The notes under the pieces are model-generated. The model worked only from the letters and a program-made list of their open reading frames with translations, searched no databases and was not told the origin of the DNA. Both the position numbers and the translations under genes were made by a program. From the NCBI GenBank assembly GCA_949297385.1, contig CASFSP010000016.1:1-33787 (forward strand): a stretch of DNA of 33,787 nt, read 5' to 3'. Origin of the DNA: an uncultured Oscillospiraceae bacterium. GTDB taxonomy: Bacteria; Bacillota; Clostridia; Oscillospirales; Ruminococcaceae. Shown here in pieces: positions 5,103 through 28,722 of this stretch; within the stretch, counting starts at the first letter, position 1; every line of letters begins with the position of its first letter.

Positions 5103-5117
5103 ATGAAAGAGCCAATG

Positions 5118-5885
5118 ATGAAAACAGGAATTTTACAGTTTGATGTTACTCACAACCCTGGTGAAAATATAAAACTTTTAAAATCTTATCTGGGCAAAAA
5201 CCGCTGCGAGCTTGTACTGCTGCCGGAACTGTCTATGTGCGGATACCTGTTCCAAAGCCGTAATCAGCTGATGGATATCTCCGAAAGCGTTCCTCAGGGG
5301 CCGTCAACCCGTGCAATGCTCAGGCTTTCAGCGGAACATTCCTGCACCATTGTTTTCGGTCTGGCTGAAAAAGAAAGCCAAAACATATACAACACCGCCG
5401 TAATCGTCAGCAAAGGCAGGTATATCGGCAGATACAGAAAGATACATCTTTCAGATTTTGAAAAGAAACTGTTCGACAGAGGAAAAGAAAACCCGGTTTT
5501 TGATGTTGACGGCATGAAAATAGGCGTTCAGATATGCTTTGACCTGTGGTTTCCGGAAATTTCAAGGGAACAGATTCGCAATGGAGCAGATATCCTGCTG
5601 GTCCCGGCAAACTTCGGCGGCCGGACCACATATCATATTTCAAAAATCCGAGCCATTGAAAACCTGACCCCGCTGGTGCTTTGCAACCGAACAGGGCACG
5701 AGTCCATTCCGGGTATGAATGCAGATTTCCTGGGCAAAAGCTCTGCGGTTGATTCCCGGGGAAACAGGATCTGCACATTGTCAGAAGGCCACGAAGATTT
5801 TCGGGTATGTGACATAAGTTTATGCAAAAAGAAATCCAATGTTATATGCAGCGACTTTGAAAGGGAAATAAAGCTACATTATTGA
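5118..5885 (+). CDS. nitrilase superfamily carbon-nitrogen hydrolase
   Basis: The enzyme hydrolyses a C-N bond of an amide, nitrile or carbamoyl compound. All three catalytic elements are present: Glu in LLPELSMCGY, Lys in YRKIHLSDFE, and Cys in GVQICFDLWFPE, followed by ADILLVPANFGG. About 255 residues is the size of a single-domain aliphatic amidase, omega-amidase or carbamoylputrescine-type enzyme. The start is uncertain: ATGs at 5103, 5115 and 5118 are in frame, and I prefer 5118 because the weak AAAGAG at 5106-5111 sits 6 bases upstream and family members begin close to this point. The divergent DUF401 permease suggests uptake of its substrate. The exact substrate cannot be read from sequence. 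Confidence 0.9.
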   Translation: MKTGILQFDVTHNPGENIKLLKSYLGKNRCELVLLPELSMCGYLFQSRNQLMDISESVPQGPSTRAMLRLSAEHSCTIVFGLAEKESQNIYNTAVIVSKGRYIGRYRKIHLSDFEKKLFDRGKENPVFDVDGMKIGVQICFDLWFPEISREQIRNGADILLVPANFGGRTTYHISKIRAIENLTPLVLCNRTGHESIPGMNADFLGKSSAVDSRGNRICTLSEGHEDFRVCDISLCKKKSNVICSDFEREIKLHY

Positions 5886-24088: not shown

Positions 24089-25234
24089 TCAGATTTTGAA
24101 AAAGCTGCTGCGCTTTATGTCAATGGCCTTTACCGGGCACATTTCATGGCAACAGAAACATTTTATGCAGTTTTTCAGGTTTATCACTGCTTTTTTGTCT
24201 TTTATCTCTATGGTTTTTTGCGGGCAGATACTCCGGCATTTGCCGCAGCCTATACATTTGGATTTGTTTATCTTCGGCTTGGGCGCCAGGAATTTTTCCA
24301 CCGCCGGCGTGGCCCAGCGCAAGGCTCTGGGCACATGGTCGCCGAAGTCCAAGCGGTAAGAACGGGGCAGAATGTAACCTTCGCACCTTTTGTACCGCTG
24401 TACATCTCCGGTTATATCTGTCATTTCCAGCTTTGTCGGTGCCAGGCCTCGGTCTATCGCCGCTTTCAGAACCGGCAGATTTTCCGGGTCAAAGCCCATT
24501 ATATACGCCATTGCCAGGTCGATTTTATACGGATCGCAACCTGCCAGCAAAAGCCCCAGGTTTCTGACGCTGCCGCCGGCCGGGCCGTCACCTTCCATCG
24601 CCTGTATTCCGTCCACAATGGTAAATGTGGGCTTTACAGCCTGACACAGGTCAACCAGCATGTTGGCAAAATTTTCCTTGTCAGGGAAACGCATGTGAAA
24701 TTCGGCCTTTTTCAGGCCCGGCACAACACCGAACATATTTTTTACCGCGCCGGTCATGCCTGTCATAACATGGGTTTTGAATTTGGCCAGGTTTATTATA
24801 ACATCGCTTTCCACTGCCGGCCGGATAACCTCAAATTCCTTTACCATGACGCCGTCGGTTTTCAAAGCGCGGCTGCTCATTTTGGTGTAAAGGTTTACTC
24901 CGCGTTTTCCAGCCACCAGTGAAAAACCGCAGGTGTTGTAATTGCCCTGTATCACACCCCGGCTGGCCGGTCCGCCGCTGGAATCGGCCAGGGTGATATT
25001 TTCGCCCTTTGCCCCGAATTCTTTCAGCACGCCTATGACGCTGTCCACAACCACCGGGTTGGTGGTCACCGCTTTGTCCGGCGTGTGTCGGCTGAGCATA
25101 TTGGGCTTTATCAATATCTTTGTATCCCGGTTTATCAGCTGATTTATCCTCTGTTGCAGCATTATTTCTTTGACCGCAATGTACATCGTCCGGCTGTCGT
25201 AACTGTCAACTTCTTTTATAACAACTTTGCACAT
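24089..25234 (-). CDS. DUF362 protein with two C-terminal 4Fe-4S clusters
   Basis: The N-terminal 300 residues match DUF362: ILIKPNMLSRHTPDKAVTTN, LADSSGGPASRG, NLAKFKTHVMTGMTGAVKNMFGVVPG and FTIVDGIQAMEGDGP. A bacterial 2x[4Fe-4S] ferredoxin domain follows, with C327, C330, C333, C337 and C356, C359, C362, C366, plus an extra C361. At 381 residues it is a normal DUF362-ferredoxin fusion, common in anaerobes. It is probably an electron-transfer or redox enzyme of unknown substrate. AAGGCGGTG precedes the ATG. It sits between an aminotransferase (25-base gap) and ispE; Fe-S electron supply to the MEP enzymes IspG and IspH is a possible, untested link. Confidence 0.9.
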   Translation of the reverse strand: MCKVVIKEVDSYDSRTMYIAVKEIMLQQRINQLINRDTKILIKPNMLSRHTPDKAVTTNPVVVDSVIGVLKEFGAKGENITLADSSGGPASRGVIQGNYNTCGFSLVAGKRGVNLYTKMSSRALKTDGVMVKEFEVIRPAVESDVIINLAKFKTHVMTGMTGAVKNMFGVVPGLKKAEFHMRFPDKENFANMLVDLCQAVKPTFTIVDGIQAMEGDGPAGGSVRNLGLLLAGCDPYKIDLAMAYIMGFDPENLPVLKAAIDRGLAPTKLEMTDITGDVQRYKRCEGYILPRSYRLDFGDHVPRALRWATPAVEKFLAPKPKINKSKCIGCGKCRSICPQKTIEIKDKKAVINLKNCIKCFCCHEMCPVKAIDIKRSSFFKI

Positions 25235-25259: not shown

Positions 25260-26429
25260 TCATTTAAGAGATTTCAAAAACGCGCCTATGCGCTTTGTGG
25301 CCTCCATAAGATGGTCAAGGGAGTATGAATAGGAAATGCGTACGAAGCCTTCCCCTGCTTTACCGAAAGCATTGCCCGGTATAACCGCTACATGGCCTTC
25401 CAGCAGCAGTTTTTCACAAAACTGTTCGCTGGTCATGCCTGTGCCGCGTATATCGGCAAACACATAAAAGGCACCCTGGGCATTGTAACAGGGCAGGCCT
25501 ATGGCGTTCAGCTCGTTTATCAGAAAACGGCGGCGCATATCGTACTGATGGCGCATGGCGTCAATTTCGCCGTCACATTCGTTCATCGCCACCACAGCCG
25601 CATACTGGCTGGTTATGGGAGCGCATATCACAGCCACCTGATGCAGTGTGGCCATGGCATCTATTATCGGCCGCGGGCCCAGGGCATATCCCAGGCGCCA
25701 GCCGGTCATGGCATAGGATTTGGAAAACCCGTTTATTACAACGGTTCTTTCCTTCATGCCGGGTATGGACGCAAAGGACACATGATGATATTCGCCGTAG
25801 GTCAGCTCGGCGTATATTTCATCTGTCATAACAAATATGTCAGTGTCCTTTATCACATCGGCAATGGCCAGCAGGTCTTCCTCTTCCATTATTGCGCCGG
25901 TGGGATTGCCGGGGAAAGGCAGAACCAGTATTTTGGTTTTGTCTGTTATGGCATTTTTCAAATCCCGGGCTGTCAGGCGGAAATTGTTTTCCTGTTTCAG
26001 TTCCACTTCCACCACTTTTGCGCCGCACATTTTTGCTATCGGGTCGTAGCTGACATAACATGGGGTGGGCAGGATAACCTCGTCCCCTTCTTCCAGCATT
26101 ACCCTGAACAGCATGTCGATGCCTTCACTGCCGCCCACTGTCACCATCACCTCGTCGGGGGTGTAGTCCAGCTTGAAACGGCGTTTCTGATAGGCACATA
26201 TTGCTTTTTTCAGCGGCAAAAGCCCCAGACCCGGGCTGTACCAGGTACGGCCTTTTTCCAGGCTCTGTATTCCGGCTTCCCTTATTCTCCACGGGGTTTT
26301 GAAATCCGGCTCGCCCACGCCCAGTATAATGCAGTCGTCAACATCCCGTGCCATCATTGATATTTTTTCTATGGGCGACAGGGGTATATCCCTTATCGCC
26401 TTGTTAAGGTATTTGCTGTAATCTATCAT
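25260..26429 (-). CDS. class I/II PLP-dependent aminotransferase
   Basis: An aspartate-aminotransferase-fold enzyme of 389 residues. It has GVGEPDFKTP near residue 37, TVGGSEGIDMLFRVML, PFPGNPTGAIMEEEDL, the DEIYAELTY motif, NGFSKSYAMTGWRLGYALGP with the PLP lysine, and a C-terminal GEGFVRISYS with the substrate-carboxylate Arg. It resembles the PatA/AspC-like group of Firmicutes. It overlaps the Lrp gene by 4 bases (ATGA), so the regulator probably senses or controls the amino acid made or consumed here. The substrate is not determinable by eye. Confidence 0.92.
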   Translation of the reverse strand: MIDYSKYLNKAIRDIPLSPIEKISMMARDVDDCIILGVGEPDFKTPWRIREAGIQSLEKGRTWYSPGLGLLPLKKAICAYQKRRFKLDYTPDEVMVTVGGSEGIDMLFRVMLEEGDEVILPTPCYVSYDPIAKMCGAKVVEVELKQENNFRLTARDLKNAITDKTKILVLPFPGNPTGAIMEEEDLLAIADVIKDTDIFVMTDEIYAELTYGEYHHVSFASIPGMKERTVVINGFSKSYAMTGWRLGYALGPRPIIDAMATLHQVAVICAPITSQYAAVVAMNECDGEIDAMRHQYDMRRRFLINELNAIGLPCYNAQGAFYVFADIRGTGMTSEQFCEKLLLEGHVAVIPGNAFGKAGEGFVRISYSYSLDHLMEATKRIGAFLKSLK

Positions 26430-26905
26430 AAAGCGTTAAGACCCCTTGTATCCTCTTCATCTTCGTGGAATATAATTCCGGCCTGCTTGTAGGGGCGCAA
26501 TACAAAATGGGTGGCCGTTTCGTTCACATCGTCCATGGGAGACAGCCTTTTGAATACAAACATTGCTATCTCCTGGAAGGATTTGGCCCTGATTTCCACC
26601 AGCAGGTCATATCCGCCGCTCATCAGTGTAACGCCTTCCACCTCGTCCATGGCGGCAATGGCCATGGCTATTTCGTCAAAGCCGCGGCCTTTTTTGGGTG
26701 TAACTTTCAGCTCTATCATTGCTTTTACCATGCTGGTGTCGGTTTTTTCCCAGTCTATCACAGCGCGGTATCCTTTTATAATTCCCTTGGCGGTACACTC
26801 GGCTATCATCTTTTCCACCTGCTCCTGACTGCATTCCAGCATTACTGCCAGCTGTGCGGGTGTCAGGGTCGGATTTGTTTCAATCAATTTCAGCAACTCT
26901 TCCAT
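26426..26905 (-). CDS. Lrp/AsnC family transcriptional regulator
   Basis: An N-terminal winged helix (LIETNPTLTPAQLAVMLECS, then VEKMIAECTAKGIIKGYRAV) is followed by the RAM ligand-binding domain (VKAMIELKVTPKKGRGFDEI, MSGGYDLLVEIRAKSFQEIA). At 159 residues it has the usual Lrp size. GGGAG lies 9 bases before the ATG. It is the first gene of the operon Lrp, aminotransferase, DUF362, ispE. Such regulators bind an amino acid and usually control the adjacent amino-acid gene. Confidence 0.92.
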   Translation of the reverse strand: MEELLKLIETNPTLTPAQLAVMLECSQEQVEKMIAECTAKGIIKGYRAVIDWEKTDTSMVKAMIELKVTPKKGRGFDEIAMAIAAMDEVEGVTLMSGGYDLLVEIRAKSFQEIAMFVFKRLSPMDDVNETATHFVLRPYKQAGIIFHEDEEDTRGLNAL

Positions 26906-27054: not shown

Positions 27055-28722
27055 ATGAAAATCTATCTGAGCAAAGCAAAAATCAAACCACTGGACATAG
27101 CCGCAAACCGGCGGCGGGCACAGCAGGAAATCGAAAAAGCCATCCGGCAGCAGGCCCGGCTGATAATATTCCCACGGGGATTTTTATCCGGTACAGACCT
27201 GGGAATACTGGCCGATGCGCCTTATTTTGCCGCCGCATACAACCAAGCTGCCCAAAGCCTGGCGCAAAAAAACAGCGAAATATACATCCTGGCAGACAGA
27301 TATGACGGCAGATTTATAAACACCCTGTATTACAGCGGTGAAAAACTGCCGGCAGACAGCTTTGAAATAGACGGCTTTTCCTTTGCCGCCTTTGACAGCC
27401 GGCACAAACTGCATCAAAAAGCCCCGGGCGTTCAGGCCGACCGGTTTATACTCAACGAAAGCCGGCCGGTGCTGGCCGGTCAGAGACGGCTTTTGCACCG
27501 AATGCTGTCCGCTTTACGGGTAAGCGGCCGCTGCACAGTGATATGCAACCTGGGCGGGCTGGGTTTTACCTCGCACCCCGATATATATATGCCCTGCGTT
27601 TCTTTTATAGACAGTAAAAACGATATTTTTACCGCAACGGTGGAAGAATATAAAAACAGCCCCTGCTGTTTTGCGCCGGAAAAACAGAAAAGCCGGCCCG
27701 GCGGCGTCTTTACCCTTCCGACACTGGATTTCCCGCTGGCTTTTAACCAAAACCCGCTTATTCCCGCCAATGTTGACCAAAAGGAATACTGCCTGGACCT
27801 GTTTTGCCTGCAAAGCCTGGCGCTGGCAAACCGCCTGGACAATCTGGGCATGAAAAGTGCAGTTGTGGCCGTCAGCGGCGGCCTGGACAGCTCGCTGGCC
27901 CTGCTGGTAACTGTAAACGCCTTTGATATGCTGGGGCTGGACCGCAGCGGAATAATAGCCCTGTCCATGCCAGGCTTCGGCACCTCCGACACTACAAAAA
28001 GCCTGGGACGGCAGCTGACCGCCGGCTTGGGAATAGAACTGAAATTCATCGACATTACCCCGGCCTGCACACAAGCGCTGAAAGACATCGGCCATGACGG
28101 ACAGACTGCCGATGTGACCTTTGAAAATGTCCAGGCCAGAATGAGGACACTGAACGCACTGAATATAGCCAACATGGCCGGCGGTATCATGGTGGGTACC
28201 GGAGACCTTAGCGAAGAGGCCCTGGGCTTTGCGACCTACGGCGGAGACCGGCTGGCCGGATACAATGTGAACAGCAGCGTATCCAAAACAGTCATCCGCA
28301 CCATGCTGCCCTATGTGACCCGGCTGGAAAACCTGAAAGGTGCAAAGGAAGCAGTTCAGGGTATACTGTCCATTCCCGTCAGCCCCGAGCTTCTGCCCGC
28401 CGCGGGCCGGATAGCCCAGAAAACCGAAGATATTCTGGCTCCCTACAAGCTTATAGACTTTTTTATATACTGCTTTGTGGTTGCAAAGCTGTCCCCAATA
28501 GAGATGGCCCAGCGCGCTTCCTGTGTGTTTGAGGGCGAATTTTCCGCCTCTTACCTGCGCGAAAAAGCGGCCATGTTTGCCAGAAGATTTATCGGTGGAC
28601 AGTTCAAACGCTCCTGCGCACCGGAAGGCGCACAGCTGACCCATGCCGCCCTTGCCGGCCGGAACAGGTCACTGCCCAGCGATAGCAGCCGGCGGTTTTT
28701 GCTCTCTTTTCTTAATATGTGA
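27055..28722 (+). CDS. nadE: NAD+ synthetase with degenerate glutaminase domain
   Basis: The C-terminal synthetase is complete: P-loop VSGGLDSSLA (273-282), PGFGTSDTTKSLGRQL, NVQARMRTLNALNIANMAG, VGTGDLSEEALGFATYGGD, the GYNVNSSVSKT segment (402-412), ILSIPVSPELLPAA and RRFIGGQFKRSCAPEG. It would amidate deamido-NAD with ATP. The N-terminal nitrilase-type domain (1 to about 205) still has the fold pattern, with ILNESRP and NLGGLG matching family strands, but Glu of FPE is Arg (R41 in FPRGFLSG), the Lys segment is shortened, and the ICEDLW Cys is missing (FAAFDSRH). At 555 residues it is about 80-100 shorter than glutamine-dependent NadE, so it probably uses free ammonia. GGGGTGA precedes the ATG. 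Confidence 0.92.
   Translation: MKIYLSKAKIKPLDIAANRRRAQQEIEKAIRQQARLIIFPRGFLSGTDLGILADAPYFAAAYNQAAQSLAQKNSEIYILADRYDGRFINTLYYSGEKLPADSFEIDGFSFAAFDSRHKLHQKAPGVQADRFILNESRPVLAGQRRLLHRMLSALRVSGRCTVICNLGGLGFTSHPDIYMPCVSFIDSKNDIFTATVEEYKNSPCCFAPEKQKSRPGGVFTLPTLDFPLAFNQNPLIPANVDQKEYCLDLFCLQSLALANRLDNLGMKSAVVAVSGGLDSSLALLVTVNAFDMLGLDRSGIIALSMPGFGTSDTTKSLGRQLTAGLGIELKFIDITPACTQALKDIGHDGQTADVTFENVQARMRTLNALNIANMAGGIMVGTGDLSEEALGFATYGGDRLAGYNVNSSVSKTVIRTMLPYVTRLENLKGAKEAVQGILSIPVSPELLPAAGRIAQKTEDILAPYKLIDFFIYCFVVAKLSPIEMAQRASCVFEGEFSASYLREKAAMFARRFIGGQFKRSCAPEGAQLTHAALAGRNRSLPSDSSRRFLLSFLNM

Follow-up and report, generated by a model that had tools for sequence, protein, structure and literature searches.

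In the window, by which we mean the whole 33,787-nucleotide stretch of DNA analysed here, from an uncultured Oscillospiraceae bacterium, the nadE gene (27055..28722, + strand, ATG start) encodes a NAD+ synthetase of 555 residues whose N-terminal, glutaminase-like domain is inactive. We consider it probable that this protein is an ammonia-dependent NadE with two domains, in which the pseudo-glutaminase has been retained for its structural role. It would descend from a glutamine-dependent NadE of the Mycobacterium tuberculosis type (tbNadE) that lost glutamine hydrolysis. The synthetase domain would adenylate nicotinate adenine dinucleotide (NaAD) with ATP, and the adenylated intermediate would then be amidated by free NH3 taken straight from solution. 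The pseudo-glutaminase, now devoid of both the C-E-K triad and the gating loop (Lys/YRE), would have persisted since it packs on the synthetase domain and probably makes up the core of the oligomer. The original prediction proposed free ammonia as well as a structural role, and these are the best inference because the triad is lost, the fold is kept under selection, this NadE is the sole copy, NadD is present and no committed glutaminase partner was found. In tbNadE and the human enzyme (hsNadE), both of them octamers, the core is made of the glutaminase domains, and free ammonia is accepted as a substrate (PMC6946656).

The synthetase domain (residues 231-555; 27745..28719, + strand) keeps its catalytic motifs, namely SGGLDS, ENxQAR, GTGDLSE, KT, PVSPELxP and QFKRS, and PF02540 (NAD_synthase) matches residues 256-483 with 83.5 bits, well over the cut-off of 21, so this part is intact as had been predicted. 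Its best PDB matches are of the M. tuberculosis type (6ofc/3dla/3sdb; 170 bits), and the best match of the whole protein in the NCBIfam search is likewise the model of tbNadE, NF002730 / PRK02628, with a score of 350.7 bits that falls short of the >473 required. When aligned with intact relatives, the domain keeps 81 of the 112 columns that are invariant among them; since the other 31 are altered (H467I, S401A and M402G, for example), the kinetics or the coupling of window NadE may differ. A sequencing, frame or assembly error as the source of the dead form can be ruled out, because the same form is found in 14 other genomes of the genus, so that 15 agree.

To read the glutaminase positions, 126 NadE frames from related genomes were aligned, 69 of which have intact E, K and C; 68 intact relatives served as reference. 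The roles of C176, E52, K121, the second Glu E132 and the YRE loop are described in tbNadE (PMC6946656). The position of the catalytic Glu (E52 in tbNadE) is R41 in window NadE (27175..27177, + strand), which bears out the predicted replacement of Glu by Arg. The Lys segment, thought to be reduced, proves to be wholly deleted: after residue 97, at the junction of residues 97-98 (27343..27348, + strand), there is no counterpart of K121 or of the loop formed by Y127, R and E132 (YRE; tbNadE numbering), and the second Glu goes with them. The position of the nucleophilic Cys (C176) is S115 (27397..27399, + strand), and the stretch equivalent to ICEDLW, residues 104-130, contains no Cys at all, as first noticed. 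Around these positions, the E-loop Tyr (tbNadE Y58) is replaced by T47 and the Glu following the Cys (E177) by R116, and among 36 glutaminase columns that are invariant in the intact proteins, 6 are kept and 10 more deleted. A displaced triad is ruled out, given that residues 104-130 are devoid of Cys and that the sole nearby Lys, K97, is not conserved, being an Ile in a 90%-identical sister. The order of the secondary-structure elements in the AlphaFold models of window NadE and of an intact relative agrees with the triad placement given by the alignment. Judged from these aligned sequences, none of the three residues of the glutaminase triad remains.

The remnant itself (residues 1-230; 27055..27744, + strand) has a predicted nitrilase fold and lacks the catalytic E, K and C. 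The original prediction that an inactive domain is kept holds, its length being about 230 residues and not about 200. PF00795 (CN_hydrolase) matches only residues 8-71 and remains below its gathering cut-off (16.3 vs 23.2), though the nitrilase fold is predicted for this domain. In the AlphaFold model (mean pLDDT 90, pTM 0.92), residues 1-220 match nitrilase-fold amidases with a Z of about 20 and an rmsd of 2.6-2.9 A over 205-212 residues. Its matches to tbNadE, hsNadE and nitrilase-fold chains extend over residues 1-555 and 1-220, and the model displays the fused nitrilase-fold N-domain and synthetase domain that are characteristic of type F. Superposed as a whole, it fits human NADSYN1 (2.9 A over 525 residues) and Cytophaga NadE (2.6 A), but the rmsd to tbNadE is 20.9 A. 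For the model of the intact relative the pattern is reversed, with 2.3 A against tbNadE and 22.5 A against human NADSYN1. Because of these opposite superpositions, the predicted domain arrangement of window NadE may differ from that of tbNadE, with the caveat that monomer models of domain-swapped proteins can mislead. The linker is also shorter in window NadE.

The dead form is not a particularity of this genome. A NadE match exists in each of the 16 genus members. One of these matches is split between contigs, and the triad is missing in all of the 15 readable ones; Q/R/A, a deletion and S/N/T/K are read at the three positions, and never E-K-C. When the family was sampled evenly with 198 genomes, dead-triad NadE was found in at least 33 of them, representing about 26 of 125 genera, this count being a lower bound with about 27 lower-scoring matches left unread. 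In trees built from the synthetase domain alone, leaving the dead domain out, the NadE of the genus, including that of the window, groups in one deep clade with copies that belong to 25 further genera of this family. The split between dead and intact NadE receives a support of 100/99 in the careful tree and 100 SH-aLRT in another. A second tree, with M. tuberculosis included, supports the dead clade at 100/100 and places M. tuberculosis among the intact proteins. The Burkholderia-type NadE was unusable as a root owing to its long branch, so we rely on the clade and not on the root. Two further dead members belong to other families of the order, one recognised by its profile score only (G536) and the other read as A-R-G (G246). 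In the class and phylum samples, no further member of the clade was found at that threshold, and the best-scoring matches have an intact triad, save one broken frame. In about 18 proteins of the dead clade, the nucleophile position is still occupied by a Cys, with E and K missing. The original prediction, which called for a survey of the form, thus understated its spread: as read from these sequences, the dead-glutaminase state is ancient and common to a clade of about 26 genera.

The gene neighbourhood points in the same direction. Upstream of nadE in the window lie a divergent gene for a regulator of the Lrp/AsnC type (26426..26905, - strand), a class I/II aminotransferase (25260..26429, - strand) and a DUF362 / 4Fe-4S (ferredoxin-like) protein (24089..25234, - strand). 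By clustering, all three recur near the nadE of the dead clade (the aminotransferase at 17 of 31 loci, Lrp/AsnC at 14 and DUF362 at 10), as do IspE, PHP, DUF711 and ACT genes, and the Lrp-aminotransferase-DUF362 neighbourhood is common to several other genera. The intact loci examined are almost wholly without these neighbours, one of them having an aminotransferase nearby. Because the neighbours recur in the dead clade and are nearly absent from intact loci, the common neighbourhood supports the view that dead NadE is an old orthologous lineage. A recent decay in place of an intact gene is ruled out by the tree and the neighbourhood, the intact copies being located elsewhere. A recurring layout (L176, L180 and L189, for example) has Lrp/AsnC, aminotransferase, DUF362 and IspE on one side and DUF711 and ACT on the other.

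Within the genus, dN/dS was estimated on seven pairs at 0.08-0.24 for the pseudo-glutaminase domain vs 0.02-0.10 for the synthetase domain, the intact controls giving 0.07-0.14 (glutaminase domain) and 0.03-0.13 (synthetase domain), and it rises up to 0.5 in two divergent pairs of the wider dead clade. The dead domain therefore remains under purifying selection, even if the constraint on it is somewhat relaxed.

The census of NadE copies consisted of a PF02540 search in 45 genomes, with about 41 bits taken as the level of other ATP-pyrophosphatases. The window gene is the only NadE found in its own genome. The other members of the genus, 20 genomes of the family sample with a dead-clade NadE and the eight Cys-less genomes tested likewise gave no second NadE-like match above that level. 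These MAGs are incomplete, and a second NadE could escape in any one genome, but not plausibly in all. In nine genomes, an intact NadE lies beside the dead one (G093, G130, G118, G184, G143, G026, G066, G103 and G190), and in four others a single-domain NadE does (G197, G088, G154 and G097). One locus of G093 (L086, G093:C6:703184-706423) has two copies in a row, first a dead NadE of full length and then one of 406 aa that comprises the synthetase part only. Their synthetase domains do not differ on the kept columns; either the gene was duplicated in tandem recently or the assembly is at fault. Each of the 16 genus genomes has NadD, which makes the NaAD substrate; therefore, NaAD is made and NadE is needed. 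As for ammonia, no Amt transporter was found in any of these 16 genomes (G000-G015), the same search being positive in 14 of 14 control genomes. This is consistent with an ammonia-rich niche, but it can alternatively mean poor ammonia scavenging; the named relatives are MAGs from the ruminant gut. GDH was found in 7 of the 16 genomes, and the genome of the window has no match. Since the dead form is widespread among relatives and usually their sole NadE, a direct use of free ammonia is suggested.

Ammonia could nevertheless come from a separate amidase or glutaminase, acting in trans and docking on the dead domain as in type C/R NadE; a two-subunit NadE exists in Thermus (PMC3376133), and among the window's own genes is one for a stand-alone amidase of the nitrilase superfamily, its E-K-C intact (5103-5885, + strand). 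However, nitrilase and N-carbamoylputrescine amidase models outscore NadE on this protein, its gene is about 21 kb away from nadE, its best matches in other genomes of the genus are just 26-30% identical, and 8 of the 16, one of which is 97% complete, have no match. It is unlikely to be a glutaminase subunit, and no NadE-type stand-alone glutaminase that could stand in for the dead domain was found. The S-subunit of type C/R, moreover, has no fused G-domain, and we hold such a supply in trans to be very improbable. We give hardly any credence to the possibility that the gene is decaying toward the loss of a functionless domain. The dN/dS of the dead domain is indeed higher than that of the synthetase domain, and synthetase-only frames are seen in G093 and G178, but in the genus its value is well below 1, the frames are open over their full length in the 15 readable members and at about 30 other loci, and the domain persists through a clade of about 26 genera.

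It has also to be considered that the dead domain may have taken on a regulatory or sensory function and would control the synthetase, for instance once bound to an amino acid or to a PII-like protein. The dead clade has a conserved motif of its own, GGxGDTSSPxLY, its nadE is repeatedly accompanied by genes for an Lrp/AsnC regulator and an ACT-domain protein, and PII is reported to control NadE enzymes elsewhere (PMC7196632). Yet the motif overlaps a region that is also conserved in intact NadE and may be structural, and the dN/dS values describe a relaxed constraint, not a novel one, so we find this reading improbable. Taken more broadly, a new role, be it that of an allosteric sensor or of a re-docked scaffold whose domains are arranged within the subunit as in the human enzyme, would make of these proteins a functionally distinct class of NAD+ synthetase, which we deem unlikely; it is with similar reserve that we would see in such a role the reason why the clade was retained beside an intact NadE in some genomes.

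Considered as an ammonia-dependent enzyme with a structural pseudo-glutaminase, window NadE can be situated among known systems. It shares with tbNadE (PDB 3dla/3syt/6ofc; NF002730 / PRK02628, type F) the fused nitrilase-fold N-domain and synthetase, but it is devoid of the C176-E52-K121 triad and the YRE loop that characterize that type. Its expected chemistry, ATP + NaAD + NH3, is that of type N NadE (Escherichia coli, Bacillus subtilis), and 1xng and 2e18 can be superposed on its synthetase domain with a Z of 26.7 and an rmsd of 2.0 A over 243 residues; however, type N has no N-terminal domain, whereas window NadE keeps about 230 nitrilase-fold residues, and the two are different lineages, both of which are present in the four genomes with a single-domain copy. 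In the type C/R NadE of Thermus thermophilus, the synthetase is likewise separable from the glutaminase function, but the glutaminase is a separate, active subunit there and a fused, inactive domain here (PMC3376133). A parallel can be drawn with human CPS1, in which an ancestral fused glutaminase was inactivated by a Cys to Ser change and retained while external ammonia is used (PMC4655335); CPS1 is an unrelated enzyme with another glutaminase fold, so this is an analogy of mechanism and not a membership, and dead NadE would be its bacterial counterpart. De Ingeniis et al. 2012 classified NadE as fused, clustered, remote or none, and discussed the direct use of ammonia by single-domain NadE as an open question (PMC3376133). 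A fused but dead NadE is outside these classes, and we found no description of it in the literature searched, most subscription journals being beyond reach. The organisms that carry it, in a gut-associated order where it is mostly the only NadE found, make direct ammonia use testable for a fused enzyme. To annotate these genes as glutamine-dependent NAD synthetase on the strength of their domain architecture would be wrong.

The loss of the nucleophile is not limited to the dead clade. Thirteen proteins on the intact side keep the Glu, and mostly the Lys, with a Ser or Gly instead of the Cys. On the tree these losses need six changes, nearly all of which are forced by well-supported branches, so the sequences indicate that the nucleophilic Cys was lost independently about six times in intact-type NadE. 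Together with the dead clade, these later losses amount to an experiment that nature has repeated, and that asks whether glutamine is required in vivo to make NAD. In one further NadE (L224, G628), an in-frame stop accompanies a Gly at the Cys position, which is possibly another Cys loss or a sequencing error. The replacement of Cys by Gly with Glu and Lys kept is seen in independent lineages, at L154 and L161 in one family (f3) and at L152, L156, L162 and L174 in another (f20).
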